Assembly: GCF_036014195.1 (NCBI RefSeq)
Contig: NZ_CP107918.1
Span: forward strand, 992,001 to 1,056,000
From: Streptomyces sp. NBC_00442
Lineage (GTDB): Bacteria > Actinomycetota > Actinomycetes > Streptomycetales > Streptomycetaceae
DNA: 64,000 nt
Reading direction: 5' to 3'
The number at the start of each line of letters is the position of its first letter. Within the stretch, counting starts at the first letter, position 1. The notes below the pieces were generated by a model that worked only from the letters and a program-made list of their open reading frames with translations, searched no databases and was not told where the DNA came from. The position numbers and the translations under genes are program-made. Below, piece after piece: positions 24,278 through 46,202 of the stretch.

Positions 24278-24294
24278 GTCCTCACTCCTCGAGC

Positions 24295-25457: not shown

Positions 25458-25623
25458 GGTCAAGGCCTCCTGCCGGGGTCGAGGCGGTCGCGGTCCGACC
25501 ACCAGGGACACCAACGAAGGGCGACTCGACGGGTAACTGCGCGGCGGCATCGGCAGGTCACGCGGGAGCACGACGTCCGAATACCGCCGGATCGTGGGGG
25601 CGTCGGGCGCCAGCATGGCCCGC

Positions 25624-26271
25624 ATGACCAGCACGATCGATCAGCAGGGCCGGGCGGCCGCCGGCCGGGACGCGGCGGCGGCCCGGCGCGCCGTCATCGG
25701 CGAGGACGGCGCCGGGCGCTGCCCGTGGGCCGTGACCCATCCGCTCAACCAGGGCTACCACGACACCGAGTGGGGACTGCCGGTCCACGGCGAACGGGAG
25801 CTGTTCGAGCGCATCACCCTGGAGGCGTTCCAGGCCGGACTGAGCTGGCTGACGATCCTGGCGAAGCGGCCCGCCTTCCGCGCCGCCTTCGACGGATTCG
25901 ACCCGGTGGCCGTGGCGGCGTACGGCGACGGCGACATCGAGCGGCTCCTCGACGAGCCCGGCATCGTCCGCAACCGCGCCAAGATCGTGGCGGCCCGTGG
26001 CAATGCGAGAGCCGTGCTCGCCCTGCGCGAGCAGGGCGGCCTCGACCGGCTGATCTGGTCCCACAAGCCGCGGCGGACCCCGGCGCCGTTGACGGCCGGC
26101 GACGTGCCGACCCGCACGCCCGACTCCGAGGCCCTGGCCCGCCGGCTGCGCTCGCTCGGCTTCTCCTTCGTGGGGCCCACGACGTGCTACGCCCTGATGG
26201 AGGCCATCGGTCTGGTGGACACCCATCTCATCGGATGTCACCGGCGCGGCAGTTCGGGTGAGCACGTCTGA
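25624..26271 (+). CDS. tag: DNA-3-methyladenine glycosylase I
   Basis: A protein of about 215 residues matching Tag: RCPWAVTHPLNQGYHDTEWG, the FERITLEAFQAGLSWLTIL helix, and the C-terminal SFVGPTTCYALMEAIGLVDTHLIGCHR with the zinc-site cysteine and histidines. It excises 3-methyladenine from alkylated DNA. The start is uncertain: ATG 25624 is used here, while ATG 25615 and GTG 25594 are in frame. It converges with metF, only 15 bases away. Its place between the sigma/Ogt-Ada operon and the diazo operon suggests a self-protection role. Confidence 0.92.
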   Translation: MTSTIDQQGRAAAGRDAAAARRAVIGEDGAGRCPWAVTHPLNQGYHDTEWGLPVHGERELFERITLEAFQAGLSWLTILAKRPAFRAAFDGFDPVAVAAYGDGDIERLLDEPGIVRNRAKIVAARGNARAVLALREQGGLDRLIWSHKPRRTPAPLTAGDVPTRTPDSEALARRLRSLGFSFVGPTTCYALMEAIGLVDTHLIGCHRRGSSGEHV

Positions 26272-26286: not shown

Positions 26287-27201
26287 TCACGGGCCGACGC
26301 GTGACAGCCGGCCCGCCCGGGAGCCCACCACGTTCTGATGGATCTCCCGTACCGCGCTCGACCGGTTGAGGGTGATGTAGTGCAGACCGGGGGCGCCTTC
26401 GGCGAGCAGCCGTCGGGCCATGGCGGTGGCGTGCGCGACGCCGACACGGTGTGCGTCGTGCGGGGCGTCGCGTGCGGCCTCCAGACGGTGCGCGAGGTCT
26501 TCGGGGAAGGCCGCGTTGCTCAGCTCCGCGAACCGGCGGATCTGGCGGACGTCCGTGGCCGGCATGATCTCGGGGATGATCGGGATGTCGCACCCGGCGG
26601 CCGTCACCAGGTCGCGCAGTCGCAGATAGTCCTCGACGCGGAAGAACATCTGGGTGATCGCGTAGTCCGCGCCGGCCCGGCACTTGGCGACGAAGTGGCG
26701 GATGTCGCTGGCCCAGTCGGGCGAGCGGGGATGACGTTCCGGGAAGGCGGCGACTCCGATCGTGAAGTCGCCCAGTGAACGCACCAGTTCGACGAGTTCG
26801 GACGCGTGGGCCAGTCCCCCCGGGTGGGGGGTCCAGTCGCCTCTCGGGTCTCCCGGAGGGTCGCCGCGCAGCGCGAGGACGTCGCGCACGCCGGCGTCCG
26901 CGTACTGCCCGATGATGCCGCGGAGTTCGGCGACCGAGTGTCCGACGGCGGTCAGGTGCGCGACCGGCCGCAGGGTCGTCTCGGCCGCGATCCGTTTGGT
27001 CACCGCGACCGTCCGGCTGCGGGAGGAGCCGCCGGCTCCGTAGGTCACCGACACGAAGTCCGGTGCCAGCGGCTCGACTTGACGGATCGCCCGCCACAGG
27101 GACCGTTCCCCGTTCTCCGTCTTCGGCGGGAAGAACTCGAAGGAGAACGTCGGTCGCGCGGACGCCTCCCGGTGGCGCGGAGGCCGCGGCGGCGCCGTCA
27201 C
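26287..27201 (-). CDS. metF: Methylenetetrahydrofolate reductase
   Basis: A 304-residue MetF. It opens with [10 protein letters not shown] (catalytic glutamate), then [19 protein letters not shown] and VLALRGDPP, and ends with [12 protein letters not shown]. It reduces 5,10-methylene-THF to 5-methyl-THF, the methyl donor for methionine synthesis. Its GTG overlaps the upstream kinase stop by four bases, so it is translationally coupled and is the last gene of the 13-gene run. With MetK and the kinase it would feed methyl groups into SAM for the two methyltransferases. Confidence 0.93.
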
Positions 27202-28178
27202 GCGAGGTCCCCGACGAGCGGTTCGACGAGGGCCTTGGCCGGGGCGCCGTAGTGCCGCCCGATCCGCCGCAGCAGATCCACGGGCACCAGTTTGTACTCC
27301 TGGGTGCCCACCGTTTCGAGGACCAGGGTGGCGAGGGCGCAGCCGAGGTGGGCGGCGCTCTCCAGGGGGAGGCCGCGGGCTGCACCGGCGAGGAACCCGG
27401 CGCGGAACGCGTCGCCGACGCCCGTCGGGTCGAGCGCCGCGTCGGTGGGCACGGCCGCCACGCGCAGCGTGGGCCGGTCCCGGCGCGCCACGCTCACTCC
27501 ACCGGCACCCAGCGTGGTGATCCACGTGCCGGTCCTGTCCAGCACCTGGTCGTGGGTCCAGCCGGCGCGTTCCTTGAGGAGGGCGGCCTCGTACTCGTTG
27601 GTGAACAACAGGCGCGATCCCTCCACGAGGAGGCGGGTCTCGGCGCGGTCGAGCCGGGCGAGCTGCTGGGAGGGGTCGGCGGCGAAGGACAGCCCCGTCG
27701 CGCGGCAGGTTTCGGCATGGCGCAGCATCGCCCGCGGATCGTCGGGGGCGATGACGGCGAGGGTGACACCGCCGCGTTCGGCGACCGGGGCCAGGTCGAT
27801 GTGCCGCGCCTCGGCCATCGCCCCCGCGTAGAAGGTGGCGATCTGGTTCTGGTCCGCGTCCGTCGTGCACACGAAGCGGGCCGTGTGCAGCGTCTCGCTC
27901 ACGCGCACCGCCCGGGTGTCCACGCCGTTGTTCTGCAGCCAGGCGTCGTACTCCGCGAAGTCCTTGCCGGCCGCGCCGACCAGGACCGGCGCCAGGCCGA
28001 GCCTGGCCAGGCCGACGGCGATGTTGGCGGCCACTCCGCCGCGGCGCACCTCCAGGGTGTCGGCGAGGAACGACAGGGAGACGCGGTCGAGCCGGTCCGG
28101 AATCAGCTGGTCGGCGAAGCGTCCGGGGTAGACCATCAGGTGGTCGGTGGCGATCGAGCCGGTGACTGCGATGCGCAC
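27198..28178 (-). CDS. PfkB family carbohydrate kinase, adenosine kinase-like
   Basis: A 326-residue ribokinase-family enzyme starting [14 protein letters not shown], with the substrate-binding [17 protein letters not shown] and the catalytic [13 protein letters not shown]. Actinobacterial proteins with this N-terminus act as adenosine kinases. Between MetK and MetF this role fits well, since adenosine is the by-product of SAH cleavage after methyl transfer. The GTG at 28178 follows AAGGAG; an upstream in-frame GTG at 28220 is less likely. Confidence 0.88.
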
Positions 28179-28216
28179 GTCAGGGTCTCCTTGAGGTGGG
28201 GTGCCGGGTCGTGTGC

Positions 28217-29437
<1,221 letters not shown>

Positions 29438-29451
29438 GGGGAGTTCCTCAC

Positions 29452-30879
29452 TCAGGGAAGCGGATGGGGAGGCAAGGAGGCGGCCGGGCCCGCCAGGGCG
29501 CGGGTGACCAGGTCCGGTGCGGCGCCGGTGTAGCCGGCCGGGTCGAGCAGGGCCGCGAGCCTCTTCTCGTCGAGGTGTCCGGCCAGTTCGGGCAGGGTGC
29601 GCAGGACGTCGGCGAGGGGCCGCGCCTCGCGGTCCGCGGTGACCGAGGCCGCCGCCAGGAGTTCCTTGGCCCGGCGCTTGCCGAGGACGGGCGCGAGGGC
29701 CACCGCGAGGCGCTCGGTCACTATTTGACTGCCCGTCAGTTCCAGGTTCTCGCGCATCCGGCCGGGGCGGACCACGAGAGCGCGCGTCAGCTCGACGGCG
29801 GTGTGCGCGGCTCCGCCGGCCAGCCGCAGACCTTCCCGCAGCAGGAGCCATTCGGCGTGCCACGCTCCGGCCGAGCGTTCGTCCTCCGTGACGAGCGCCT
29901 GGGTCAACCCGGCGGTCAGGAGGGGGACTTGGAGCGCGGCGCTGCGGATCAGCGTGGAGAGCACCGGATTGCGTTTGTGCGGCATCGCGGAGGAGGCGCC
30001 GCGTCCCGCGACCTCCGGTTCGGCGACCTCCCCGATCTCGGTCCTGGTCAGGACCTGCACGTCGGCGGCCATCTTGCCGAGCGCCCCGGTCGTCATGGCC
30101 AGGGCCGCCGCCAGGTCGGCGATCGGCGTGCGCAGGCCGTGCCAGGGCAACGGCGGACGGCTCAGCGAGGTTTCGGCGGCGAAGGCGTCGACGAGCCGGT
30201 CCGCGTAGGAAGCGGGGTCGAAGGCCTGCGCGTCGAGGGCCGCGTACTCCAGGTAGCCGGCCAGGGTGCCCGCGGCGCCGCCGACCGAGACGGGCAGCGT
30301 CCGCTGCGTCGCGGCAAGGCGCGCCTCGGCGTCCAGGGTCAACTGCCGCCACCCCGCGGCCTTGAGGCCGAATGTGGTGGGCACCGCGTGCAGGCAGAGG
30401 GTGCGGGCCGCCATGACGGTGTCCCGGTGGCGCTCCGCCAGGCCGGCGAGGGACCGCGAAACCTCCGCGAGGTCGGCGCGGATCATGCCGATGGCCCGGT
30501 GGGCCACCAGCATGGCCCCGGTGTCCAGGACGTCCTGGCTGGTCGAACCGCGGTGGACGTACTCCGCCGCCGCGGGGCTTTCGGCGGCGACCGCGTCGGT
30601 GAGGGCGCGCACGAGCCCGACGACGGGGTTGGCCGTCTCCCGCGCCGCCAGCGCCAGCTCCCGCAGGTCGAACCGCTCGGCGCGGGCGGCGCGGGTGATG
30701 GCTCGGGCGGCGTCCGCCGGGACCGTCCCGAGCCCGGCCTGGGCGCGGGCCAGCGCCGCTTCGGCGTCGAGCATCGCCTGGAGCCACGCGCGGTCGCAGA
30801 CGGCCTCTTCGACCGGGGTTCCGGCCCTCACCGGTGACAACAGGCCCGTGTCGGGCCCTCCGTCGAACGTCTCGCTCAT
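29452..30879 (-). CDS. creD: Nitrosuccinate lyase (CreD-like; adenylosuccinate lyase/fumarase superfamily)
   Basis: A 475-residue member of the aspartase/fumarase/PurB superfamily. The signature loop [10 protein letters not shown] at about residue 290 is intact, and the region around [12 protein letters not shown] gives the family's second conserved block. Sequence alone would allow a 3-carboxymuconate cycloisomerase or PurB call. The four-base overlap with a CreE-like N-oxygenase makes nitrosuccinate lyase far more likely: CreD eliminates nitrous acid from nitrosuccinate to leave fumarate. The nitrous acid would then be used for diazotisation. Confidence 0.85.
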
Positions 30880-32861
30880 GCCGTCACCTCCAGCAGGTCC
30901 GGGCCGGGGGCGGCCGCCGCCGAAGAGGCAGGGGCCGGGGCGAGGCTCAGGCCGAGCACCGCCCGTGCGATGGCGTCGGAGTCCCCGAGCGTGACCGAGT
31001 TGACGCCCGGCCGGATCCCGGCCGCCGTCACCCAGTGCACGGATTCCGTGGGTACTCCGTAGGCGAAGCGGCGGGGGTGGGCGCGGCCCCGCCCGTCGAT
31101 GAGGCGATAGGGACGTTCCGTGACGGCCAGGCCGCCCGTCTCGTACGTGGTGCCGTGGACTCCGTCGAGCCGGTACGGCGTGATCTGACGACTCATCAAA
31201 AGCTGCCGCAGCAAGGCGTCTTTGGTCCTCCTGAGGTCGGGCTCGGGGAGCCGGGCCTCAATGAGCACCGTGGCGCTGACGGGCTCGGCGGCGACGGACT
31301 TCGACGAGGCGACGAAGGCGGGGCCCCCGTCGGCGCCGGTGGCGATCTCGATGTGCAGATCGGGGCCGAGGACGTCGACGACGCCGGCTTCGATCAGCGC
31401 CCGGAGCTCCTCGACCCGCGAGACGGGTGGCCCGATGGAGAGGAAGGCGTTGAGCGGTGTGTACCAGCCCTGCAGATCGTCACGGTAGGAGTTGCCTTCC
31501 AGGCCGCCGTGGTCGACGGCGAGACGGATCTCGTTGCGCAGGTCGCGCAGTACGTCAAGGGCCGTCTTGAGGGGTCCGCTCAGGTTCCCGGACCGGGCCT
31601 CGCGCACGTCGCGCGCCAGATGGTCGAGGAGCCAGGCGCGGAACGCGGCGCGATCGGCGAACCGTCGCCCGCCGGTGGGCCGGGCGATGGCCCCCCAGTC
31701 CCACCGGTCGGCGCTCTCGACGCCGAACTCGTCGAGCAGGCGCTGCTCCTGGGCGCCCGCGGGCGCGGTCAGATAGCGCCGGGCGAACTCCTTTGCCGCG
31801 GCGCGCCGTCCACGGCCGGCGAGGAGCGTCTCGTAGTAGACGCACTCCACTTCCTTGGCGATCAGGGGCCACAGGTCGGTGCCGAAACGGACGCGCTCGG
31901 CGCCCTCGGCCCGTCGGCGCAGGCCGGCGACGACCTCGGGGGTGAGCAGCCGCGGCAGATACCGCCCGTGCGCGCCCTTCTCGTTCTCACCGCGTGCGTG
32001 ATACGGAATGCCGCGCCGTGATCCGGCCAGGATCCTCGGTTCCTGGCCCGACGGGCGGTAGACGAGCCGGCCGTCGCGGCGCTCGAAGAAGCCGCCCCTG
32101 CCCCGGGTCAACAGGGCCATCTGGTCGAAGAAGTTCAGGCCGAGCCCGCGGATCAGCACGCTCTGGCCGGGAGTCACCCGGGACAGGTCGAGGTCGGCCG
32201 GGTTGGCCGGCGGCACGTGCGTCAGTCCGCGCGCCGCGGCGGCGCGCGCCCACTCCTCCTCCCGACTCCCCGGACGGGTCGGTACGTGCCCGAGGGCGAG
32301 CACGACGGCGTCGAGACCACGCAGCTCTGTGCCGTCCGCGAGTTCCAGGGTCTGGGGGCCCTCGCGCACGCCCGTGGTGTCGCGGAGCGCGACGGCCCGG
32401 GTGGCGTACTCCCGCAGGACGCAGTGGGCGGGGGCCCGCCGTGCCACGTGCCGGTAGGCATGGGCGAGGTAGTGGCCGTAGAAGGCGCGGGTGGGATAGG
32501 AGTCCGGGGCCAGGTCGCGGGCCTCGGCGTGGACCCGGTCGTCGTGGTCGACCCGGTCGCCGGACGCCACGACCTGCTTGGCCCACTCGTACAGGCTCGG
32601 CCCCGGCTCGACCGGCCCGTCCATGTCCACGCTGGTGTCGGTGAAGACCGTGACCTGCGAGGCGACCGTGTTCATCAGGAGGAGGCCGGACTGGTTGGTG
32701 CGCCAGACCTTGCCGGGTCCGTGCGGATAGGGGTCGACGAGGTGGATGACGACCGTGTCGTGGGTGGCGCTCTCGCGTTCGTTGGCGCAGAGCCGCTCCA
32801 GCACGGACAGTCCGCGCGGACCCGTGCCGACGATGCAGACCTCCAGACGGCTCCCGCTCAT
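30876..32861 (-). CDS. creE: FAD-dependent aspartate N-oxygenase (CreE-like)
   Basis: A 661-residue flavoprotein. It begins with a dinucleotide motif [17 protein letters not shown], followed by [13 protein letters not shown] and [13 protein letters not shown], and has an internal second nucleotide region near [17 protein letters not shown]. This is the large FAD/NAD(P)-binding type that includes CreE, which oxidises L-aspartate stepwise to nitrosuccinate. It overlaps creD by four bases, as expected for the nitrous-acid pair. It also overlaps the upstream hydroxylase by four bases. An annotation as a generic lysine/ornithine N-oxygenase-like protein would miss this role. Confidence 0.85.
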
Positions 32862-34543
32862 GTCGCCTCCCCCGGCTTCGACCGCCGGGCACCGGTCACC
32901 CGTGCCACGAGCTCTCCCGGATCGGGGGGCAACTGGTCGCCCCGCCAGGCCACGTGCTGGTCGGGCCGGATCAGTACGAGGTCGCGCTCGTACAGCTCGC
33001 GGGCGTCCTCGCCCTCGACGTCAAGCACCGTCAGCGGCATGCCCGCCGCCTGGGCGGCGGCTTCGAGCGGCTTGCCGCTGGGGGGCTCGGGCCCCAGCCG
33101 CAGCAGGGTGAACCCGGCGCCGAACCGGTCGAAGAGGGAACTTCCCTGGCCGTGCCAGTCGTCCAGCCACAGATGCGGGGCCCGGCCGCCGGGGACGCTG
33201 CTGGGCGTGTAGGTGCCCCAGGAGTCCGCGGGCGGCTCGCCGTCCGGTGCGATGACGGGCGAGCCGTCGTAGCGGGCCCCGAGCTGCACGCCGAGGGAGT
33301 GGGTGCGTTCCCCGTAGCAGCGCAGCAGCGCACCGACGCGCTCGCGGGCCGCCGCTCCCTGCCGCGTGTCCTCTTCGAGCGCCGGCGGCCGGTCTATGCC
33401 GCCGAGTCCGGAGTTGAGGTCACGGGCGGCCGTGGTGTTGCGCAGGGCGATCGGCCTGCGTTCGCCCTCGTAGGTGGCCAGGAGGCCCGGCCCGCCCCAG
33501 CCGTCGAGGACGGCGGCCAGCTTCCAGGCGAGGTTGGCCGCGTCGTCGACGCCCGTGTTCATGCCGAACCCCCCGTTCGGGGTGAACAGATGGGCCGCGT
33601 CGCCGGCCAGGAAGACCCTCCCCTTCGTGAAGCGCTCCGCGACCAGGGCGGCCCCCGGCGTCCAGGGCCGGTGGCTCAGCACCTCGACGGGCAGCGCCCT
33701 GCCCGCGGCGCGCCGCACGAGCGAGGTGATGGCTTCGGTGTCCGCGGTGTCGGGATCGAGCGAACTGGTCAGGAGGAAGAACTCGTCGTCGCCGTTGAGC
33801 GAGATGAGGTTCATGACGAGTTCGCTGTTCAGCGCCCAGTAGCTCCAGGCGCGCCGCCCCGTTAACACCTCCTGGTGGAAGGTGGGCAGCCGCAGGTGCA
33901 CGGCGGTCGCCCGGCGCCCGAGCACCTCCTGGTCGAGCGAGCCGGGTCCCTCGTAGCGGACGCCGAGGGCGCGGCGCACGAAACTGCGTCCGCCGTCGCT
34001 TCCCACCACGTAGCGCGCCGTCCAGTCCTGCGTGCTCCCCTCCGCGGGGAACTCCGCGCGCAGCGCCACCTGTTCGGCGTTCTGTTCCAGCGCCGTGACC
34101 CGCCGGCCGAACCGCAGGGAGATGTTGGGCCGGGTGCGCGCGTGGTGGTAGAGGAACTCCTCGACGTACTTCTGGTTGGCCCGGTGGACCGGCTCGGGAA
34201 GCTGGTCCGTACGGGGAGAGACGGCCGTCTGCCGCAGCCGCTGCGTCCCCGTGGGCAGGGTGAGGCGCGACAGTTCGTGGCCGCTGTAGCGGGTGAAGTA
34301 GGCGATGTCCGTGGGCTGTTCGCACGGAAGGCCGAGCCGTCGGATGGGGCCGGATATCCCGAGCCGGCGATAGTGCTCCATCGTGCGGGCGTTGTGGGTG
34401 TTGCCGCGCGGCCGGCCGTGCCAGCTCTCCTCGGCGTTGAAGACGACGCTCGGCACGCCGTACCGGTCGAGGAAGAGCGCGAGCAGCAGCCCCACCGGTC
34501 CGCCGCCCACGATCGCGACGGGCGTGTACGGGTGGTCGCTCAT
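32858..34543 (-). CDS. FAD-dependent aromatic hydroxylase (first of two)
   Basis: A 561-residue group A flavin monooxygenase. VAIVGGGPVGLLLALFL binds FAD, VVGSDGGRSFVRRALG is the DG motif, and GRVFLAGDAAHLFTPNGGFG is the GD motif. A thioredoxin-like C-terminal domain follows, as in phenol hydroxylases. It probably adds a hydroxyl to the aminohydroxybenzoate ring. Codon 227 is TTA (33865-33863), which places it under bldA control. It abuts the upstream hydroxylase stop with no gap and shares its ribosome site GGAGGAGGGG. Confidence 0.9.
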   Translation of the reverse strand: MSDHPYTPVAIVGGGPVGLLLALFLDRYGVPSVVFNAEESWHGRPRGNTHNARTMEHYRRLGISGPIRRLGLPCEQPTDIAYFTRYSGHELSRLTLPTGTQRLRQTAVSPRTDQLPEPVHRANQKYVEEFLYHHARTRPNISLRFGRRVTALEQNAEQVALRAEFPAEGSTQDWTARYVVGSDGGRSFVRRALGVRYEGPGSLDQEVLGRRATAVHLRLPTFHQEVLTGRRAWSYWALNSELVMNLISLNGDDEFFLLTSSLDPDTADTEAITSLVRRAAGRALPVEVLSHRPWTPGAALVAERFTKGRVFLAGDAAHLFTPNGGFGMNTGVDDAANLAWKLAAVLDGWGGPGLLATYEGERRPIALRNTTAARDLNSGLGGIDRPPALEEDTRQGAAARERVGALLRCYGERTHSLGVQLGARYDGSPVIAPDGEPPADSWGTYTPSSVPGGRAPHLWLDDWHGQGSSLFDRFGAGFTLLRLGPEPPSGKPLEAAAQAAGMPLTVLDVEGEDARELYERDLVLIRPDQHVAWRGDQLPPDPGELVARVTGARRSKPGEAT

Positions 34544-36382
34544 CTAACCCCTCCTCCCCGCGCCGCTGTCCCCGTCGAGGGCGAGGGACCTGCGGAGCGC
34601 CTCGGCGAGCGCCTGGGCCGGTTCGTGGACCCGCGACAGCCACCGCATGGCCACGAAGCCGTCCGGGCGCACCAGGATCGCGCCGTCGCGGTCGTGACCG
34701 CACAGCCCCGCCCACTCCCCTTCCTCGTCGACCGGGCCGCCGGCGGCGCCCACGGCGTGCGCGGCGACGGGAACGCCGTAGGACGCGGACAGGCGGGCGG
34801 CGGCCGTGAGCCAGCCCTCTCCCCTGGCCCCGGCGAGCAGGAGGAACGCCCCTGGCTGTGCCAGCAGGTGGTGGGTGGAGACGCGCTCGGTGCCGCACCG
34901 CAGCCAGGCGTGCGGCAGCCGGGCCCCCGGACTCGACGTCGGCTCGTAGACCAGGCCGAGCGGGTCGGGCTTGGGGTAGGTGGCCCGGTCGGCGCCGACG
35001 AAGCCGGCTCCCGCGTAGTCGTACCCCATTTCGAGGCCCAGGTGGGCCGTGGTGATCCGGTTGGTGTCGAAGTACTCGCGCAGCACCGCCCGCCTGGTGT
35101 CGCCGTCGGGGGTGTCGGAGAAGAGCGCCGTCATCTGGGCGCGGTTCCACTCCGGCCGCGCGCCGGGCACGACGCCCGTCCCCGCGGTGAAGGCGATCTG
35201 GTTGAAGAGCGAGAACAGCGCCCGCTCCACGACGCGCTGTGCCACCGGCTTGCGTTCCGCCTCGTAGCTGTCGAGCAGCGACTCGCCGGCCTGGCCGTTC
35301 AGGACCCGGGCGAGCTTCCAGGCGAGGTTGTGCACGTCCTGGATCCCGGTGTTCAGGCCGAGCGCGCCGGACGGCGGGTGGCGGTGGGCGGCGTCACCGA
35401 CGAGGAAGACCCGGCCCGAGCGGAACCGTTCGGCGACCAGTCCTTCCACCGGCCACTTGCTGATGCTCTCCACCTCCATGGGGTGGTCGTCGGGGAGCTT
35501 CAGCGTGCGGCGCACCATCTTCACCGTCGTCGCGTCGTCCACGTCGGCCGCGCCCGGGTCGCCCGGCGGCCGGGAGAACATCAGCGTCCACTCCTCGGAG
35601 TGCCGGCCCCAGTTGCGCGGCCCCATCGGCACCACGCCGCAGTGTTCGAGCGTCCCGTCCTCGGCGAGGCTGGAGACCCGGTTGACCACCGCGTCGTCGT
35701 ACGGGATGAACGGCGAGAAGTCCGCCCGTACATGGAGGTTGATCCATTCGAGGAATGTCGGCGTGCCGGTCATGGGGATGTCGCGCATGCGGCCCACGGT
35801 CTTGCCGCCGTCGGCCGCGATGACGTACGCGGCCCGCACCTGGAAGCTGTCGCCGCTGGTGCGGTCGCGGACGGTGGCGCTCACGCCGCTCTCGTCCTCG
35901 TCCAGGGACGTCAGCTCGTGGTGGAAGAGGAGTTCTCCCGGACCGCGTTTCTCGGCATGGCGGCGGATCAGGGGTTCGAGCCAGCGCTGCCCGAGGTTGG
36001 CGTGCCGGTAGGCGGATGCCCTGGCGTAGCGTTCCGCCTCCTCTCCGCCGCCGTAGGCGCTGGTCCGGTACAGGACCTTGCGGTCGTAGGGCTCCTCGCC
36101 GCCGAGGCTGGAGAGCCAGACCATCGCTCCGCAGTTCTCCGGCGGGGCGCCCTCGCGATAGATGTCGTCGGCCACGTCGTGGTGGCCGAATATCTCCATG
36201 GTCCGGGCGTTGAGGATGTGCGCCTTCGGCTGGATCGACGTGGTGGGGTGGCGCTCGACGAGCAGCGAGGCGATGCCCAGGTCGGACAGGATCAGGGACG
36301 CGGTGAGGCCGGATCCGCCGCCGCCCACCACGAGGACGGGGACATGACGGTCGCTCGGACCGGACCGGGGGGCTGCGTTCAT
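34544..36382 (-). CDS. FAD-dependent aromatic hydroxylase (second of two)
   Basis: A 612-residue group A flavin monooxygenase, a different subfamily from its neighbour. It has VLVVGGGGSGLTASLIL, the DG-type VIAADGGKTVGRMRDI and GRVFLVGDAAHRHPPSG, with a C-terminal thioredoxin-like domain. The closest broad relatives are the PheA/TfdB and polyketide hydroxylases. The ATG follows GAGGA and overlaps the O-methyltransferase stop (ATGA). Which of the two enzymes acts first on 3-amino-4-hydroxybenzoate cannot be told from sequence. Confidence 0.9.
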   Translation of the reverse strand: MNAAPRSGPSDRHVPVLVVGGGGSGLTASLILSDLGIASLLVERHPTTSIQPKAHILNARTMEIFGHHDVADDIYREGAPPENCGAMVWLSSLGGEEPYDRKVLYRTSAYGGGEEAERYARASAYRHANLGQRWLEPLIRRHAEKRGPGELLFHHELTSLDEDESGVSATVRDRTSGDSFQVRAAYVIAADGGKTVGRMRDIPMTGTPTFLEWINLHVRADFSPFIPYDDAVVNRVSSLAEDGTLEHCGVVPMGPRNWGRHSEEWTLMFSRPPGDPGAADVDDATTVKMVRRTLKLPDDHPMEVESISKWPVEGLVAERFRSGRVFLVGDAAHRHPPSGALGLNTGIQDVHNLAWKLARVLNGQAGESLLDSYEAERKPVAQRVVERALFSLFNQIAFTAGTGVVPGARPEWNRAQMTALFSDTPDGDTRRAVLREYFDTNRITTAHLGLEMGYDYAGAGFVGADRATYPKPDPLGLVYEPTSSPGARLPHAWLRCGTERVSTHHLLAQPGAFLLLAGARGEGWLTAAARLSASYGVPVAAHAVGAAGGPVDEEGEWAGLCGHDRDGAILVRPDGFVAMRWLSRVHEPAQALAEALRRSLALDGDSGAGRRG

Positions 36383-37410
36383 GAGAGTTCCTCGGATTCG
36401 CGTTCCCGCACGGGAGCGGCGACCAGCAGGCTGGTCTCCAGGGCCAGCGGAGTCACGGACTCCAGGCACAGCCCGGCGGCGCCGAGCAGGCCGCGGTAGC
36501 CGTCGAGGGTGCGTTCTCTGCCGCCGGCGGCCATCAGCAGATGCAGGTCCCACAGGAGCGCGAGGAGTTCGCTCCCCTCGGTGGGGATGACCCGCTCCAC
36601 GATCAGCAGCCGCGCGGTGTCGGGCATGGCCGCGCGGAGGGTGGACAGCAGGCGGCACGCCTGGTCGTCGTCCCAGTCCTGCAGGACGCGGGAGAGCAGG
36701 TAGACGTCGGCTCCGGCCGGAACGCTGTGGAACGCGTCTCCGCCCACCGCGTCGTAGCGGTCCTCCCCCACGGCCCGGTCCAGGTGCTCCCTGGCCACCG
36801 GCAGGACGTGCGGAAGGTCGAACAGCACGCCGTGCAGGGCGGGATGGGCGTCGAGGACGGTGGAGAGCAGCATGCCGCTGCCGCCGGCGACGTCGACGAC
36901 GGTGTGGCAGGCCGAGAAGTCGTAGGCCTTCACCACGTCGGAGAAGAAGACGTTGCCCGCGTTCATCGCCCGCTGGAACTTGGCGCCGGCGGCCGGATCC
37001 GCCTGGAGGTGGCCGCGCAGGTCGACGCCGAAGGCGTGCTCGAAGCCGGAGCGTCCGGTGCGCACGGCCGGTACGACGGCGCCCCAGGCCCGCTGGAACT
37101 CCTCGCCGTAGATCACGGCCATGTCCCGCATGGACCGGTCGTCGTCGGTGCGCAGGATCTGGCTGACCGGGGTCAGCCGGTAGCCCTCGTCGGCGGAGCC
37201 GGTGAAGAGCCCCATCGCCGTCAGCAGGCGCATCAGGCGTTCGACGGCGTCCTTGTCGGCCTCCACGGCCAGGGCAAGGGCCGCGGCCGTGTCATGGCCG
37301 GCGGCGATGTGGTCGGGGATGTCGAGCGCGGCGGCCGCGTACAGCGCCTGGGCCTGCCAGGCGCCGGTGAGGATGTCCACCACGCGACGTGCGGGGTGCC
37401 CGTCGGGCAT
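36379..37410 (-). CDS. O-methyltransferase, PF00891 type
   Basis: A 343-residue plant-type O-methyltransferase common in antibiotic clusters. The N-terminal dimerisation domain is followed by the SAM motif VVDVAGGSGMLLSTVL, FDLPHVLPVAREHL and VYLLSRVLQDWDDD. It should methylate a phenolic hydroxyl on the aromatic product or precursor. It lies between the AMP ligase and the hydroxylases, overlapping the latter by four bases. The start ATG has AAAGG 8 bases upstream. Confidence 0.92.
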   Translation of the reverse strand: MPDGHPARRVVDILTGAWQAQALYAAAALDIPDHIAAGHDTAAALALAVEADKDAVERLMRLLTAMGLFTGSADEGYRLTPVSQILRTDDDRSMRDMAVIYGEEFQRAWGAVVPAVRTGRSGFEHAFGVDLRGHLQADPAAGAKFQRAMNAGNVFFSDVVKAYDFSACHTVVDVAGGSGMLLSTVLDAHPALHGVLFDLPHVLPVAREHLDRAVGEDRYDAVGGDAFHSVPAGADVYLLSRVLQDWDDDQACRLLSTLRAAMPDTARLLIVERVIPTEGSELLALLWDLHLLMAAGGRERTLDGYRGLLGAAGLCLESVTPLALETSLLVAAPVRERESEELS

Positions 37411-37466
37411 GAGTCGAGCCTTTCGGTGTCGAGGAGGCCGGCGCGATGTGCCGGCGCCGGGCGGGG

Positions 37467-39206
37467 CTATTCGGCGGGTACGGAACCGATGGCGGTCCGG
37501 CTCCGTACGTGGGCCGCCCCCGCGGGCGCGGGCCCGCTGAGGATGGAGCGGTGCTGTTCGCGCAGCCGGCGCTTGAGCACCTTGCCGGTGGGGCCGACCG
37601 GGAGCGCGTCACGGTTCTCGGCGATGACCAGCGCGCTCAGCGGGGCCAGCCCGGCGGCGGTCAGTGCGGCGTTGCACCCGTCGAGCAGGTTGCGCGGGGA
37701 GCGCTCGATGCCGTCGCCGAAGAGCACGACGGCCGCGGGCCGGCAGGCGCCGGGGCGGTCGGGGTCGGCGACGGCCACGACCGCGGCGTCGAGCGCCTGG
37801 GTCCTGAGCAGGACGGTCTCTTCCAGCGGAAGGCTGTAGACCGGGCCGCCGGCCGTGTGGATCACGTCGGGCGTGCGGTCGAGGTGGTACCAGAGGCCCT
37901 GGCTGTCGCGCCGCACCACGTCCCCGGTCAGGAAGTAGCCGTTGCACAGGGAGTCGCGGCCCAGGGTCGGGTCGTCCCAGTAGCCGGGGGTGAGGCTCGG
38001 CGTGCGCACGCCGAGCCGGCCGGCTTCTCCGTCGGGCAGGACGTTTCCGTCCTCGTCCAGGACCGCGGCCTGCCGCACGGCCTTGACGGGGCGCCCGATG
38101 AGCCGGCCGAACCCGGAGCTGTCGGGGGTGAAGACCTGGCGGAAGAGGACCATCCCCATCTCGGACGAGCCGAGCCCGTCGATGTAGCGGGAGCCGGGCT
38201 TCTTCTTGCCGTCGTCGTGGCGCATGCCGAGCGCGGTCAGCGGCCGGATGTGACGTTCGTGCGAGGCGTCGCCCATGCCGTTCCAGGAGTGGATGTGCTG
38301 AGCGGCGTACGGGGTGACCTTGGATACGTCGATCTCGGCGAGCGTCAGCGGGAAGCCGAGGACGAAGGTGGGGTGGAACCGGTTGACCGCCCGGACCACG
38401 GACTCGCCCTTCGCATCGTCCAGTACGAGCGTCGGGATGCCGAGGAGCAGCGCCATCGTGAGGTAGCTGATGCCGGCGGAGTGGCTGTGCGGCAGGGCCG
38501 TCAGCATGCGGTCGCCGCGCAGCGACGGGAAGGTCCACAGGCGTTCGCGCTTGCCGTCGAAGAAGGAATCGTGCGTGAAGACGGGGGCCTTGGGCCGTCC
38601 GGTGGTCCCGGAGGAGTGCGAGATCATCACCAGGTCGTCGCCGCGGTGGCGGTGCGGGAAGCCGGGCATCGGGCCGGTGGGGCGCGGTGCGTCGCGGTCG
38701 AGGCGGGCGATGTCCTGCGTGAGGATCCTGCCGGCCTCGGGGGCCCCGGAACGGGCCCAGGCGTCGGCGCAGTTCGCGCGGAGGTCCTCGTCGGCGACGA
38801 GCACGGTGGTCCGGGTGCGCAGGAAGTACTCGGCGGCCGTGTCGCTCGCCATGTTGGGGTTGCAGTGCACGGCCACCGCTCCCAGGGCGGTGATGGCGAT
38901 GTGGTGCAGGAGCCCGAAGAGGCCGTTGCGGGTGTGGACACCGACGTGGGTGCCCGGCAGCACGCCGTGCGTGCGGTGCCAGTGGGCGTACCGGATGGCC
39001 GTGATGCGCAGGTCGTTGAGCGAGACGCCCGGGGTCTGTGTCTCGTCCCAGCCGGGCGATGTCACATCCGGGTGGAAGAGGATCGGCCGGTCGCGGTCGG
39101 TCGCGTTGCGCCATGCGTGCCAGAAGAAGTTTCCGGCGCCGAGCCTGCGGTTGGCGGTCAGGCTCAGACGCTGGGCGACGGAGCGGTGGGTCCCGAATAT
39201 ATGCAT
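37467..39206 (-). CDS. creM: AMP-forming ligase, candidate diazotising enzyme (CreM-like)
   Basis: A full-length (579-residue) adenylate-forming enzyme. A3 is ISHSSGTTGRPKA, A5 is DGLGSSEMG, A7 is GYFLTGDVV, the hinge is HLDRTPDVI, and the A10 lysine is in PTGKVLKRR. In cremeomycin biosynthesis CreM, a fatty-acid-CoA-ligase homologue, activates nitrite with ATP and forms the diazo group. The combination with creE, creD, griH and griI makes this the natural assignment here. The alternative is an ordinary aryl- or acyl-CoA ligase. The gene lies 13 bases after the Ada-like gene. Confidence 0.8.
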   Translation of the reverse strand: MHIFGTHRSVAQRLSLTANRRLGAGNFFWHAWRNATDRDRPILFHPDVTSPGWDETQTPGVSLNDLRITAIRYAHWHRTHGVLPGTHVGVHTRNGLFGLLHHIAITALGAVAVHCNPNMASDTAAEYFLRTRTTVLVADEDLRANCADAWARSGAPEAGRILTQDIARLDRDAPRPTGPMPGFPHRHRGDDLVMISHSSGTTGRPKAPVFTHDSFFDGKRERLWTFPSLRGDRMLTALPHSHSAGISYLTMALLLGIPTLVLDDAKGESVVRAVNRFHPTFVLGFPLTLAEIDVSKVTPYAAQHIHSWNGMGDASHERHIRPLTALGMRHDDGKKKPGSRYIDGLGSSEMGMVLFRQVFTPDSSGFGRLIGRPVKAVRQAAVLDEDGNVLPDGEAGRLGVRTPSLTPGYWDDPTLGRDSLCNGYFLTGDVVRRDSQGLWYHLDRTPDVIHTAGGPVYSLPLEETVLLRTQALDAAVVAVADPDRPGACRPAAVVLFGDGIERSPRNLLDGCNAALTAAGLAPLSALVIAENRDALPVGPTGKVLKRRLREQHRSILSGPAPAGAAHVRSRTAIGSVPAE

Positions 39207-39219
39207 CGGTGTGTGTCTC

Positions 39220-40191
39220 TCATCCTTCGGCAGAATGTGTCTGGTCCCATGCCTCGTTCAGTGCCGTGCGCAGCCACTCCGCGAGCGCCGTGGCCCGGAT
39301 ATCGCGCGGGACGGCGTGCGGCACGGCGAGGGGCGCGGCCCGGCCGAGGGTGGCCGTGAGGCGCTCACTCAACTCCGGTGACGCGCGGGACAGTTGGGCT
39401 TCGGTGAAGGCTTCGCGCAGCCGCCGTACGACGGTGTCCGTGTCGCGGCCGATGAGGAGGGAACAAACGCCTCTGCCGCTCGCTCCCACCAGCAGGCGCC
39501 CCAGGGGGCTGTCCGTGGTGGCGTAGTGGATGCGGACGCCGCGCCCCCGGTTCTTGAAGACGGTGGGTGTCATCCCGAGGAGGCTCTGTGCCCGTGCGTA
39601 GAAGTTGCCGTTGGTGTTGAAGCCGGCCTGGTAGATGGCGTCGGTGATGGTGCGGGTCCGCGGCAGGGCCAGCCGGAGCCGTTCCGCCCGGCAGGCGTCC
39701 GCGTACGCCTTGGGTGTCACCCCGGTGGCGGTGACGAACACCCGGTGGAAGTGGAACCGGCTGAACCCGGCCCCCGCCGCCAGCTCCGCGAGCGGCGGGG
39801 GCGTGCCGGGCGCCTCCATCGCCCGGCACGAGCGGATCACGGCGGCGGTGCGGGCCGCGTGGGCCGAACCGTCGGGGCGACAGCGCCGGCAGGGCCTGAA
39901 CCCGGCCCGCTCCGCGGCGGCCCCGTCGGGAAAGAAGACGAGGTGGCCGCGGTGCGGCGGGCGCGAGCCGCAGGAGGGTCTGCTGTACGTGCCGGTCGTC
40001 AGCACCCCGTAGCAGAAGGAACTGTCGGCCCGGCTGTCCCGGTCGAGCACCGCGCGCCATCGGGCGTCGTCCTCCACGGACCGTGGGGGCGGGCGGAGTT
40101 CGCGTCCCCGGGCCGCGCGGATCGGGGGCGGGCGCCCGGCCGGCACCGCGGGCGCCGACGCGGCGGCCGCGCGTCCCGGCATCGCGCTCAC
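39220..40191 (-). CDS. Ada-like AraC regulator lacking both methyl-acceptor cysteines
   Basis: A 323-residue Ada homologue inside the biosynthetic operon. The Ada zinc domain (45-108) reads GTYSRPSC where Ada has YCRPSC, so the phosphotriester-accepting cysteine is Ser70; Cys74, Cys101 and Cys104 remain. An AraC helix-turn-helix spans about 115-215. The C-terminal Ogt part (235-323) keeps the N-terminal subdomain but ends soon after DIRATALAEWLRTAL, before the PCHR active site. It therefore cannot repair DNA in the known way and is most likely a regulator with a changed sensor. It overlaps griH by four bases. Confidence 0.85.
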   Translation of the reverse strand: MSAMPGRAAAASAPAVPAGRPPPIRAARGRELRPPPRSVEDDARWRAVLDRDSRADSSFCYGVLTTGTYSRPSCGSRPPHRGHLVFFPDGAAAERAGFRPCRRCRPDGSAHAARTAAVIRSCRAMEAPGTPPPLAELAAGAGFSRFHFHRVFVTATGVTPKAYADACRAERLRLALPRTRTITDAIYQAGFNTNGNFYARAQSLLGMTPTVFKNRGRGVRIHYATTDSPLGRLLVGASGRGVCSLLIGRDTDTVVRRLREAFTEAQLSRASPELSERLTATLGRAAPLAVPHAVPRDIRATALAEWLRTALNEAWDQTHSAEG

Positions 40192-41291
40192 TTCTCCAGG
40201 CAGAATTCGGCTATGGGGTAGCCGACGTGCCGGTCCGCGACCGGCAGGTAGCCGAGCACCTTGTCGCCGGGCTTGAGCTCGGTGCTGTTGAGCACCACGC
40301 CGCCCGGCCCCAGCACCCGTACGTGCCAGTCGTCCTGGAGGATCAGGTTGGCGGTGCGCCCTTCCGGGCCGACCGCGTCGATGGAGATCAGCGGACGGCT
40401 CTCGATCTTCACCCGGCCGACGGTCACCAGCCGTGTCCTGCCGTGGATGTCGACGGCGGTGACCTTGCTGCCGGACTTCAACTCGCTGAGGTAATTGGTG
40501 CGTTCGTTCTCGCCGAGGGTGTACGAGTGGATGGCTCCGGCGTTGACGCGGAAGGGGCGGGTCGGCATGTAAGGCAGCGGATGCGTCTCACTGACACAGA
40601 GGATCATGCCCTTGGAGTGCGAGCCCACGAGGATGCCCTCGTCCTCGCGGAAGTAGGTCGCGGTGTCCACACACGCCCGGTCACCCATGCCGACGTGCGC
40701 GGTGGCGGTGATCTCGAGCTCCACCAGCTCGACGTCCGGCACTCCCGCCTGGGCGGCCAGCTTCAGATCGGTGGTGTCGCCGACCTTGGCCGGCGCCATG
40801 AGCACGCCGTCCGAGCCGAGTTCGAGCACACCGAAGATGATCTCGGCCTCTTCGACGTCCTTGGCCACGGTGATGAGGCTGCCGTCCGCCCTGGCCGCCG
40901 CGGCGATCACGATCTCCAGCGGGATCTTGGTGGGGTCGCGGAAGTCGAGCAGGCTCCACTTCTCCACGCGGCCCGACGTGCAGGCCTCCTCCAGGGTCTC
41001 CGCGTCGACGATCTCGACGTACCGGCCGAACTCCACGGCCGGGTGCTGAAGCGCCAGTTCCCTCGGCTCACCGTGCTTCGCCGGATCCACGATGATCACG
41101 TCGGCGCCGCCGAAGTCCTCGGGCAGGGGCTGGCCCTGGGGGAACAGCACCTTCTTCACCGTGGGCGGAAGCGTGGCGAAGTCCGCCGGGTCCGCGGCCA
41201 GGATGGCGTCGACCCGCGCGTGGACGGCCTCTTCCACGATCGCGTCCTTGGCGGACCCGACGGAACGGATGTCTATCCAGCTGAGCTTCAC
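40188..41291 (-). CDS. griH: 3-amino-4-hydroxybenzoate synthase (GriH-like, dehydroquinate synthase II family)
   Basis: A 367-residue protein of the archaeal-type dehydroquinate synthase II family, the family of GriH. Family blocks include DVIIVDPAKHGEPREL, GSDGVLMAPAKVGD and GILVGSHSKGMILCVSETHPLPYMP split over the middle of the protein. GriH closes the C7 aldol product of GriI into 3-amino-4-hydroxybenzoate. The GTG start overlaps the griI stop by four bases. The aldolase partner directly upstream distinguishes this from a shikimate-pathway role. Confidence 0.93.
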   Translation of the reverse strand: MKLSWIDIRSVGSAKDAIVEEAVHARVDAILAADPADFATLPPTVKKVLFPQGQPLPEDFGGADVIIVDPAKHGEPRELALQHPAVEFGRYVEIVDAETLEEACTSGRVEKWSLLDFRDPTKIPLEIVIAAAARADGSLITVAKDVEEAEIIFGVLELGSDGVLMAPAKVGDTTDLKLAAQAGVPDVELVELEITATAHVGMGDRACVDTATYFREDEGILVGSHSKGMILCVSETHPLPYMPTRPFRVNAGAIHSYTLGENERTNYLSELKSGSKVTAVDIHGRTRLVTVGRVKIESRPLISIDAVGPEGRTANLILQDDWHVRVLGPGGVVLNSTELKPGDKVLGYLPVADRHVGYPIAEFCLEK

Positions 41292-42103
41292 AGAGCACCT
41301 GCCATCTGAGAGGAGGGGGAAGGGACCAGAGGGATGGGGCCGCCGTGCACGATGGACGCGAGTTCACGCACCGTGGCCGCGGGGTTGGCCGAGCCGAACA
41401 CCCGCCGCCCGACGGCGAGTCCACTGCACCCGACGGCCATCGCGGTGGTGGCGAAGTCCGTGAGGCTGTCGCCGCGGTTGCCGCCGGCCACGATCACGGG
41501 GAGGGTGGAGTTCGCGACGACTTCGACCATGCTCTCGGCCGGCGAGGCGAAGACGGTCTTGACGATGTCGACGCCGAGGTCCGCGGCGATGTTCACCACG
41601 TGGGAGAGCAGGACCGGGTCGGACGGGTCGGTGACGCGGGGTCCGCGCGGATAGATCATGGCGAGCAGCGGCATGCCCCAGCGGTCGCAGGCCGCGGCCA
41701 CGGTCCCGAGGTCCGCGAGTTGCGCGGACTCGGTGTCCGACCCGATGTTGACGTGCACGCTGACCGCGTCCGCGCCGAGCCGGATGGCGTCCTCGACGTC
41801 GCCGACGAGGACCTTGGCGTCGACGTCCGGGCCGTGCACGGTGCTCGCGCTCAGATGCACCAGGAGCGCGCATTCGGTCAGCACGTCGGGGTCGACGACG
41901 CGGGCGCGCCCCTTGTGCAGGACGATGCCGTCGGCGCCTCCGGCGACCACGCCGCGGACCAGCGTGTCGAAGCCGTCGGCGCTGGTGATGGGGCCGTCCG
42001 AGACGGAGTGGTCGAGGGGGACGAACAGGTAGCGGCCGTCGTTGTGGCCGCCGGACAGGCGGGCCAGGCGCATTGATTTTCCGGTGGAGGACGTTCTCGT
42101 CAT
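41288..42103 (-). CDS. griI: Aldolase making the C7 precursor of 3-amino-4-hydroxybenzoate (GriI-like)
   Basis: A 271-residue class I aldolase of the DhnA/ADH-synthase family. FVPLDHSVSDGP carries the catalytic aspartate, VDIVKTVFASP the Schiff-base lysine, and VIVAGGNRGDS with GLAVGRRVF the phosphate-binding end. GriI condenses L-aspartate semialdehyde with dihydroxyacetone phosphate. The ATG at 42103 follows AAGGGAG; an in-frame ATG two codons upstream has no better site. The cluster draws on aspartate metabolism twice, once here and once through CreE. Confidence 0.93.
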   Translation of the reverse strand: MTRTSSTGKSMRLARLSGGHNDGRYLFVPLDHSVSDGPITSADGFDTLVRGVVAGGADGIVLHKGRARVVDPDVLTECALLVHLSASTVHGPDVDAKVLVGDVEDAIRLGADAVSVHVNIGSDTESAQLADLGTVAAACDRWGMPLLAMIYPRGPRVTDPSDPVLLSHVVNIAADLGVDIVKTVFASPAESMVEVVANSTLPVIVAGGNRGDSLTDFATTAMAVGCSGLAVGRRVFGSANPAATVRELASIVHGGPIPLVPSPSSQMAGAL

Positions 42104-42138
42104 GAGCACTCCCTTGTGCGGCAGACGCGCATCGGCTT

Positions 42139-42786
42139 CTAGGACTTCTTGCGGACGAGCGTCACTCCGTCACCGATCGACAGGATGACCGCTTCCACGC
42201 GCTGGTCGGATGCGACGTGCGCGTTGAAGGCACGCATGCTCGCGCCTTCGCCGTCGGGGTCGTCGACGACGGTCTGGAACCAGAGGACGTTGTCGACGAG
42301 GATCGCGCCGCCGGGGCGCATCCGCGGGACGAGCTCCTCGTAGTACGCGATGTAGTTGGGCTTGTCCGCGTCGATGAACGCGAGGTCCACCACGGGGTCG
42401 GCCGGCAGGGCGCGCAGGGTCTCAAGGGCCGGCCCGAGGCGGAGTTCGATCCGGTCCTCGACCTCGGCCTCCACCCAGGCCTTCTTGGCGATGTCGGTCC
42501 ACTCCTCGCTCACGTCGCAGGTGAGGAGGTGGCCGCCGGGCGCGAGTCCCTTGGCGATGCACAGGGCGGAATAGCCCGTGAAGGTGCCGATTTCGATGGC
42601 GGTTCGCGCTCCCATGAGCTGGGTGAGAAGAGTGAAGAATCCGCCCTGCGGAGCGCCGATCTGCATGCGCGCCCGGTCGCCGACGGTGGCTGTGGCCGCG
42701 ACCAGATTGCGCTGTGCCTCATCGGCTTGGAGGCTGTTTTCCACGATGTATCCGTAGAGGGCTTCAGGCACCATTTTCGGTCTCAT
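42139..42786 (-). CDS. O-methyltransferase, CCoAOMT/catechol type
   Basis: A 215-residue metal-dependent O-methyltransferase. AIEIGTFTGYSALCIAKGL is the SAM motif, DLAFIDADKPNY and ILVDNVLWFQTVVDD hold the metal-binding acids. Such enzymes prefer vicinal dihydroxy aromatics, which fits a ring hydroxylated by the operon's flavoenzymes. It is the first gene of the 13-gene run and has its own predicted promoter. There is no clear ribosome site before the ATG at 42786; the ATG at 42774 is also possible. Confidence 0.9.
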   Translation of the reverse strand: MRPKMVPEALYGYIVENSLQADEAQRNLVAATATVGDRARMQIGAPQGGFFTLLTQLMGARTAIEIGTFTGYSALCIAKGLAPGGHLLTCDVSEEWTDIAKKAWVEAEVEDRIELRLGPALETLRALPADPVVDLAFIDADKPNYIAYYEELVPRMRPGGAILVDNVLWFQTVVDDPDGEGASMRAFNAHVASDQRVEAVILSIGDGVTLVRKKS

Positions 42787-43604: not shown

Positions 43605-43650
43605 CTGCCGAATCTCCTTCGCCGAGACGTGTGCTGCGTCTTTTTGTGCT

Positions 43651-45993: not shown

Positions 45994-46202
45994 GGTCTTC
46001 CCTTTCCAGCTGCGGCGTTGTCGACATCTCCGGGCGTGAGTCCCCGCGGGGCCGGAGAACCGGCGTGAAACCGACCGGTCGATGGGAGAACACCGGCCCC
46101 GTCCGGCGGGTTGCATGGGCCGGGAAATTCGACCGCAAGATCTTGAGCGCCGTCGGCGCGGCCGGTGACTAGCGTCGCCGTGACGCAGCCTTGGGAGGCC
46201 AC

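Follow-up and report, generated by a model that had tools for sequence, protein, structure and literature searches.

What does a streptomycete make from 3-amino-4-hydroxybenzoate (3,4-AHBA), nitrite and S-adenosylmethionine (SAM)? The question is raised by a stretch of 64,000 nucleotides, here called the window, from Streptomyces sp. NBC_00442 (contig NZ_CP107918.1, positions 992,001 to 1,056,000), whose genome of 7.73 Mb is a single contig. A thirteen-gene operon at 26287–42786 of the window, which includes a gene for a CreM-like ATP-dependent ligase, was assigned in a preliminary description to an aromatic diazo compound related to cremeomycin. The ingredients named there stand: 3,4-AHBA, nitrous acid derived from aspartate, and a CreM-type ligase. 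Retention of a diazo group is not established, and the DNA repair genes around the operon point instead to a methylating product. We consider it somewhat probable (about 0.55) that the product of the cluster is a small aromatic DNA-methylating agent. That the product methylates DNA in one form or another, a triazene included, can be said with a little more confidence, and an N-methyl-N-nitroso structure is the most likely form. More tentatively, and at rather below even odds, the ligase may be an ATP-dependent N-nitrosating enzyme that makes an aromatic N-methyl-N-nitroso compound from an N-methylated 3,4-AHBA derivative.

The argument turns on a repair cassette that is shared with clusters encoding SznF and SznE and is lacking in 20 other CreD loci, which points to a methylating product. 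If this is correct, the repair genes tell us what an entire family of orphan clusters makes, namely natural DNA-methylating aromatics formed with nitrite, and CreM-type ligases gain a new role together with a defined self-resistance set. Nature would then have another way to a methyldiazonium warhead, through nitrite instead of SznF; some 30 actinomycete genomes would hold it, the majority with a resistance cassette in common with streptozotocin-type clusters. Such a route would also offer a candidate explanation of why crexazone biosynthesis depends on nitrite genes, a requirement so far unexplained. Among CC-licensed PMC articles, judged by their titles and the starts of their abstracts, neither a link between CreE/CreD and a methylating product nor an aromatic N-methyl-N-nitroso product was recognised.

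The repair cassette and its genomic company

Ogt, the Ada zinc domain and Tag repair methyl lesions. Genes for such proteins sit on both sides of the operon, sigE/ogt and tag on one side and ogt2 with a small Ada_Zn gene, past a BBE-type oxidase gene, on the other:

23489–24298, minus strand: ogt, Ogt-type DNA methyltransferase with a C-terminal Ada_Zn domain; the Ogt cysteine (PCHRV) and the four zinc-site cysteines are all present
24295–24900, minus strand: sigE, extracytoplasmic function (SigE-family) sigma factor (Pfam/NCBIfam); overlaps ogt by 4 bases, and the pair is conserved
25594–26271, plus strand: tag, 3-methyladenine DNA glycosylase (PF03352, 214 bits), one of two in the genome
48528–48953, minus strand: small Ada_Zn-type metal-binding protein, an open reading frame (ORF) of uncertain start (weak PF02805 match, 24 bits)
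48859–49449, minus strand: ogt2, second Ogt/MGMT protein, with PCHRV (PF01035, 100 bits)

The window holds a putative methyl-nitroso self-resistance cassette: a sigma factor gene overlapping that of an intact Ogt fusion, plus Tag and Ogt2. Genome-wide there are matches to five Ada_Zn, six Ogt and two Tag proteins. Five of the twelve genes (the fusion counted once) lie in the 27-kb cluster, one of the five being the degenerate ada of the operon; the binomial probability is 4e-10, for a test chosen post hoc on neighbours that are not independent. Ogt-like genes, mostly 38–49% identical to ogt2, accompany ogt in many relatives.

With which chemistry does the Ogt–Ada_Zn fusion travel? It was found in 14 of 392 genomes of the genus: all six that have the CreM-like ligase, seven in which SznF and SznE lie no more than about 12 kb away, and one (G340; G and L numbers denote genomes and loci) with neither. 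Around the fusion in the eight genomes lacking the ligase, about 20 kb was fetched each way. The chance of all six ligase genomes carrying the fusion is 6e-10, a statistic that ignores shared ancestry. With 13 of the 14 genomes holding one of two N–N pathways, the sigma factor and the fusion together could serve as a marker for methyl-nitroso products. SznF occurs in eight of the 392 genomes, namely the seven with the cassette and G225, where the match is distant and partial, and in none of the 392 do SznF and this ligase occur together. Along its whole length the SznF of G366 aligns with the solved SznF (837 bits), and it has haem-oxygenase-like and cupin domains. Within about 20 kb of the seven cassette-bearing SznF clusters there was no match to creE or creD. 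In two of them (G366, L180; G090, L184) SznE/SznF adjoin genes in the order griI-griH-amidase-amp2-SDR-MFS-BBE (SDR, short-chain dehydrogenase), a hybrid that combines genes for streptozotocin-type nitrosation with those for 3,4-AHBA. The streptozotocin clusters (szn/stz, BGC0002294 and BGC0002313) have the sigma factor and MGMT genes in common with the window, and 7 of the 8 SznF genomes have the cassette. Also in favour of a methylating product, alkylation by streptozotocin is undone by homologues of AlkB and AGT (PMC9040887). They differ in that here the nitrogen would come from CreE/CreD and the ligase, on an aromatic scaffold; no SznF was found in this genome at E <= 1e-60, and neither SznF nor an SznE-like N-methyltransferase has a match in the window.

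Among 26 Ogt fusions placed in a tree, those linked to SznF and those linked to Cre genes are intermingled, with for example G366, G090 and G187 beside G180 (S. himastatinicus). The well supported branches of this tree force at least two to three partner changes, so that the cassette has moved between the two N–N chemistries. The tree and a check of residues by position used matches of at least about 226 residues; they do not include L016, L020, L031, L042 and L043, in which the gene is truncated or broken, and repeats (L036 and loci from L060 upwards) were also omitted from the tree. The four zinc-site cysteines are kept at all 30 places checked, some of which repeat a genome. Every Cre-linked fusion keeps the Ogt cysteine, read by position: the exact PCHRV is absent in 10 of the 26 fusions, and the Cre-linked variants are PCHRI or PCHRA.

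Does nitrite itself call for the cassette? In 20 other CreD loci (CreD 67–72% identical; 18–22 kb each way) ogt, ogt2 and tag were found in none, and four of the 20 carry a full-length CreM-family ligase (33–35% identical). These controls were not a random sample: they were chosen for high scores and long contigs, and the ligases in them came to light only afterwards; they were searched with the window proteins at E <= 1e-5, so that very distant repair genes could be missed. A partial ada match (26% of the length) was seen in G105 and a sigma factor 28% identical in G158. Nitrite, or such a ligase, is therefore not enough to call for the cassette, which thus tracks methyl-nitroso chemistry, shared by most other carriers, and not nitrite.

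The operon, its predicted pathway and its relatives

The thirteen leftward genes of the preliminary description were confirmed gene by gene, all on the minus strand and all with strong family matches (Pfam/NCBIfam). Leftward from the 5' end the order is OMT3, griI, griH, ada, the creM-like ligase gene, OMT2, FMO2, FMO1, creE, creD, metK, a PfkB kinase gene and metF:

42139–42786, minus strand: OMT3, catechol-type O-methyltransferase (PF01596, 184 bits)
41288–42109, minus strand: griI, aldolase for 3,4-AHBA (NF041223, 279 bits, cut-off 500; NF005556 above cut-off)
40188–41291, minus strand: griH, 3,4-AHBA synthase (NF041224, 668 bits, cut-off 750; NF002625 above cut-off)
39220–40191, minus strand: ada, Ada-derived AraC-type regulator; serine for the methyl-acceptor cysteine, without an Ogt active site
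37467–39206, minus strand: creM-like ATP-dependent ligase (nitrosation or diazotisation), AMP-binding family; adenylation motifs intact by eye
36379–37410, minus strand: OMT2, PhzM-like SAM methyltransferase; glutamine for the catalytic histidine, SAM motif retained
34544–36382, minus strand: FMO2, second FAD aromatic hydroxylase (family match); found in type A loci (see below) and L033
32858–34543, minus strand: FMO1, FAD aromatic hydroxylase (FAD_binding_3 and Rng_hyd_C); relative in 28 of 29 related loci (not L037)
30876–32861, minus strand: creE, aspartate N-hydroxylase (nitrosuccinate synthase) by homology (PDB 8cp2, a solved FAD protein, 661 bits)
29452–30879, minus strand: creD, nitrosuccinate lyase (NF052556, 764 bits, cut-off 650; PDB CreD 5xny, 567 bits)
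28217–29437, minus strand: metK, SAM synthetase (TIGR01034, 537 bits)
27198–28220, minus strand: PfkB-family kinase, putative adenosine kinase; adjoins metK/metF in relatives
26287–27201, minus strand: metF, methylenetetrahydrofolate reductase (family match); GTG start overlaps the upstream stop

The tight packing reported earlier also holds, with 4-base overlaps at seven of the 12 junctions, one abutting pair, and four gaps of 13, 14, 29 and 56 bases. A filter on GC at the third codon position was passed by 10 of the 13 ORFs and failed by metF, metK and ada. The ORFs of metF and metK had been listed with over-long starts, and those used here (27201 and 29437) were chosen by us. Directly upstream of OMT3 a terminator-like hairpin of 18 pairs followed by a T run (42914–42875) separates it from the neighbouring cupin-SDR-MFS operon, which agrees with a 5' edge at 42786; this type of hairpin is not rare per se, a scan having found 2 such sites versus 3.9 in shuffles. 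No RNA family scored above cut-off in 19000–53000.

The enzymes agree with what had been proposed. GriI/GriH score above their subfamily cut-offs (NF005556 and NF002625) and below the cut-offs of the BagB/BagC exceptions, as suits 3,4-AHBA formation. For the CreE/CreD pair, assigned to nitrous acid from aspartate, the 8cp2 structure is on our own reading the L-aspartate N-hydroxylase of PMC10404684. The families named for the AMP ligase, the two FAD hydroxylases, the two methyltransferases and the SAM-cycle genes were right; we infer that the PfkB kinase is the adenosine kinase of the cycle.

Going by characterised families, GriI and GriH would supply 3,4-AHBA, CreE and CreD would yield nitrite from aspartate, and MetK, the kinase and MetF would replenish SAM. 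In the proposed key step OMT2 would methylate the aromatic nitrogen before nitrosation. The ligase would then activate nitrite with ATP and transfer it to the methylated nitrogen, and with a secondary amine the reaction would halt at the N-methyl-N-nitroso stage, with no diazonium. Oxidation of the ring by FMO1 and FMO2, with O-methylation by OMT3, may then allow the nitroso group to break down to methyldiazonium. Self-protection would be provided by the Ogt–Ada_Zn fusion, made with its own sigma factor, by the second Ogt and perhaps by Tag, and an MFS pump would export the product. It is by homology only that the supply of 3,4-AHBA, nitrite and SAM, the hydroxylation, the methylation and the ATP-dependent ligase step are placed here.

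Is OMT2 an N- or an O-methyltransferase? Its nearest PDB match is PhzM (2ip2, 253 bits), an N-methyltransferase (PMC10784701), and the O-methyltransferase LaPhzM (6c5b) scores 230 bits. Glutamine replaces the catalytic histidine in each of 34 aligned rows, which stand for no more than 29 different genomes, and likewise in the best 120 homologues, where a pattern showed it in 118 and inspection by eye in the other two. The alignment took matches covering >85% of the query, leaves out L031 and L042, and contains rows that repeat a genome (L010/L036, L011/L016, L012/L043, L014/L025, L009/window). These features point to N-methylation but are suggestive only: the O-, C- and S-methyltransferases DnrK, SibL and DsyB are also without the histidine (PMC10784701), so its loss is not diagnostic, a point that counts against the proposal. 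An AlpH-like protein that is not a methyltransferase was considered and rejected, as AlpH lost the glycine-rich SAM motif (PMC10477347), which 119 of the 120 homologues keep. A natural fusion of a CreM-like ligase and an OMT2-type methyltransferase (P0087, 885 amino acids) suggests that the two may act in sequence.

Relatives were collected by a CreM-like ligase 58–82% identical to that of the window, which gave 29 loci (L015–L043); four clusters were extended. Type A loci repeat the window operon (L015, L017, L019, L036 and L043; with fewer flanking genes L016, L018, L039 and L042). In the fetched loci L017 has no match to creE or creD and L042 none to creD. Type B loci (for example L020–L032 and G179) have ligase-OMT2-creE-creD, a varying number of metK, kinase and metF, and FMO1 on the opposite strand; the type B locus L027 has no creD match. 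In G179 a griI-griH-amp2-ada block lies about 15 kb apart from the remaining cluster. The SARP, BBE oxidase, cupin, SDR and especially the sigma factor/Ogt pair recur in types A and B. The genome has an Ogt fusion for 26 of the 29 loci (25 of the 28 searched, three of them as broken pieces, and L017 in its own locus), and sigE or ogt is inside the fetched stretch in 19 of the 29. Between the ligase/OMT2 pair and griI-creE-creD, L037 (S. iconiensis) has a cyclodipeptide synthase gene (14113–14829).

Weighing the possible products

Several observations weigh against a DNA-methylating product. The cluster has no known metabolite. Three genomes with divergent loci that hold the ligase and OMT2 are without the Ogt fusion (L033, Dactylosporangium; L037; L040); L033 carries an Ada-like gene. 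In G046 ligase and fusion are on separate contigs. The fusion also occurs in other company: G340 (L182/L183) has a sigE-ogt-ogt2 cassette and no SznF or CreM-type genes within about 20 kb, its neighbours belonging only to transposase (IS630-type nearby), peptidase or regulator families, or to none. Moreover, among the eight fusions that do not belong to this cluster type the Ogt cysteine is lost in four, being alanine in the SznF-linked G166 (L192), G227 (L188) and G269 (L190), 48–51% identical, and serine in G340 (L182), with the zinc-site cysteines kept. To judge from this residue such fusions cannot act as the usual O6-methylguanine acceptor and may be sensors instead of repair proteins. 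For tag a relative (73% identical) was found in only G179 among the four extended relatives, and its membership in the cluster is less sure. The window has neither an AlkB gene, the only one of the genome lying elsewhere, nor an Oxygenase-NA gene.

The Ada regulator inside the operon counts on the same side. It is present, as had been noted, and is an AraC-type Ada derivative, but its methyl-acceptor cysteine and the Ogt active site are lost. The methyl-acceptor position, which we take to be Cys38 in E. coli numbering, is serine in all 15 of the 16 cluster rows that cover the site (about ten different sequences; the match in L033 ends before it). Two chromosomal Ada proteins outside the cluster that were aligned with them have cysteine there. 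The Ogt part stops before any active site. With serine for the acceptor cysteine, the protein would not itself sense methylation by that route, and we set aside the idea of a working damage sensor. It is apparently a conserved, methylation-blind derivative that would act as a regulator, not as an ordinary methylation sensor; if the proposal as a whole is right, this regulator with its serine would work independently of methylation.

The main rival is a methylated, cremeomycin-like diazo compound. The ligase would be CreM, OMT2 would be CreN, FMO1 and FMO2 would include CreL, and the product would be a more oxidised or O-methylated o-quinone diazide of 3,4-AHBA, with the repair genes guarding against diazo damage. 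The core set matches the published one of 3,4-AHBA genes, CreD/CreE, CreM and the methyltransferase CreN (PMC11429834, PMC11705231), and to go by their names, the letters M and N hint at neighbouring genes like the ligase and OMT2 genes here. The S. cremeus proteins CreN and CreM may correspond to OMT2 and this ligase; if so, the balance would shift towards a diazo product and away from a methylating one. Compared by description, the cremeomycin cluster (cre, Streptomyces cremeus, BGC0001295) shares the 3,4-AHBA genes, the CreE/CreD pathway, a CreM-type ligase and a methyltransferase with the window (PMC11705231, PMC11429834), which differs in its two FAD hydroxylases, two methyltransferases, SAM-cycle genes, second ligase and methylation-repair cassette. 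No match above 73% to the S. cremeus CreD was found in the 80 CreD-bearing genomes searched, S. cremeus not being among them. What makes a diazo compound less likely in our view is that the repair functions (Ogt, Ada_Zn, Tag) are specific for methyl lesions, which would not be expected if the damage were of the aryl or carbene kind. The same cassette is missing from all 20 other CreD loci, including the four with a full-length CreM-family ligase, and is common to SznF clusters that have no creE/creD match nearby. Neither does damage by the nitrous acid of CreE/CreD, unrelated to the product, account for the repair genes. Nitrite can indeed nitrosate cell amines to methylating agents, yet the distribution just given, with none of the 20 CreE/CreD controls and seven SznF clusters carrying the cassette, led us to set nitrite stress aside as very improbable.

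The repair evidence is identical for a methyl triazene. Here the ligase would diazotise a primary aryl amine, and the diazonium would be captured by methylamine or a methylated nitrogen; like metabolites of dacarbazine, the resulting aryl methyl triazene would release methyldiazonium. This would suit both a diazotase and a methylating product, but among the families found in the ORFs scanned we recognised no gene that would make methylamine or couple nitrogens, and we regard it as improbable. Alternatively, might the diazo or nitroso group be only a transient handle, removed as for avenalumic acid or perhaps lost as for crexazone, leaving a product with no N–N bond? There is precedent in avaA6/avaA7 (PMC10777205) and in the crexazones, which have no diazo group although all three require crxD and crxE, and two of them, CRX2 and CRX3, also crxM (PMC11429834). 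The avenalumic and p-coumaric acid clusters (ava, cma) have 3,4-AHBA, the aspartate–nitrosuccinate (ANS) pathway and an ATP-dependent diazotase in common with the window, and differ by a type II polyketide synthase (PKS) and a denitrification enzyme (PMC10777205). No PKS gene was recognised here, nor a ketosynthase–chain length factor (KS-CLF) gene in the ORFs scanned, AvaA7 not itself having been searched for. Against the AvaA6 equivalog NF058622 the ligase scores 343 of 975 bits, far below the cut-off, and the repair genes would have no explanation if the group left no trace, so that such a product seems a long shot. The crexazone cluster (crx, Streptomyces sp. CS057) by description also has 3,4-AHBA, CrxD/CrxE, CrxM and CrxN in common with the window; it differs by LuxR/TetR regulators and a DAO-domain oxidase, and the sections devoted to it mention no repair genes (PMC11429834). 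CRX2 and CRX3 (texazone) carry an N-methyl group and need crxD/E/M, CrxN has been put forward as the N-methylase, and a diazo group was not found (PMC11429834). It is speculation that the N-methyl crexazones might be denitrosated relics.

Flanking genes and related regions

The cluster is larger than the thirteen-gene operon of the preliminary description and extends over about 20402–49449. The SARP, amp2, sigE/ogt, cupin, SDR, MFS and BBE oxidase genes recur with the operon in relatives. Besides the repair genes the flanks hold:

20402–21232, plus strand: SARP-type activator (Trans_reg_C and BTAD); a SARP 53–59% identical adjoins amp2 in G287, G180 and G302
22053–23282, minus strand: amp2, second AMP-binding ligase, 409 amino acids; adjoins griH in L033, L040 and G179, and is 59–61% identical in the SznF clusters of G366/G090
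25026–25634, minus strand: SnoaL-like protein, start uncertain (Pfam); 62–68% identical over about 70% of the length, after adoK/metF, in G287 and G180
42978–43670, minus strand: cupin (Pfam), conserved in relatives
43651–44418, minus strand: SDR (Pfam), conserved in relatives
44533–46347, minus strand: MFS exporter (Pfam), ORF whose real start is uncertain, conserved in relatives
46191–47909, plus strand: BBE-type FAD oxidase (Pfam), conserved in relatives

At 47950–48564 of the window a 204-residue protein without a Pfam match is encoded; the clusters of G180, G302 and G179 have related proteins nearby (50–66% identity over 55–98% of the length). Genes of the PF09859 'Oxygenase-NA' family, related to that of the SznF cluster, are present near the creM-type clusters L022, L027, L034, L042, G180 and G302.

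A candidate region that a 2025 SARP-beacon study found through its SARP (A7X85_RS43410-43525, NZ_CP047019.1) is very likely a type B member of this cluster family. By description it encodes an aldolase, a DHQ synthase II, CreE-like and CreD-like proteins, two MGMTs, a sigma factor and a SARP (PMC12224297). Four of its proteins are 52–68% identical to those of the cremeomycin cluster and 49–64% to those of diazaquinomycin, and its sigma factor/MGMT copies are 69, 55 and 65% identical to those of the streptozotocin clusters, to which the study likened them; the section on the region gives no product class (PMC12224297).

A further Ogt and Ada gene pair, of the ordinary chromosomal type and included among the twelve genes counted above, lies at 1069972–1071906 of the contig, about 14–16 kb past the window and about 29–30 kb beyond the end of the cluster.

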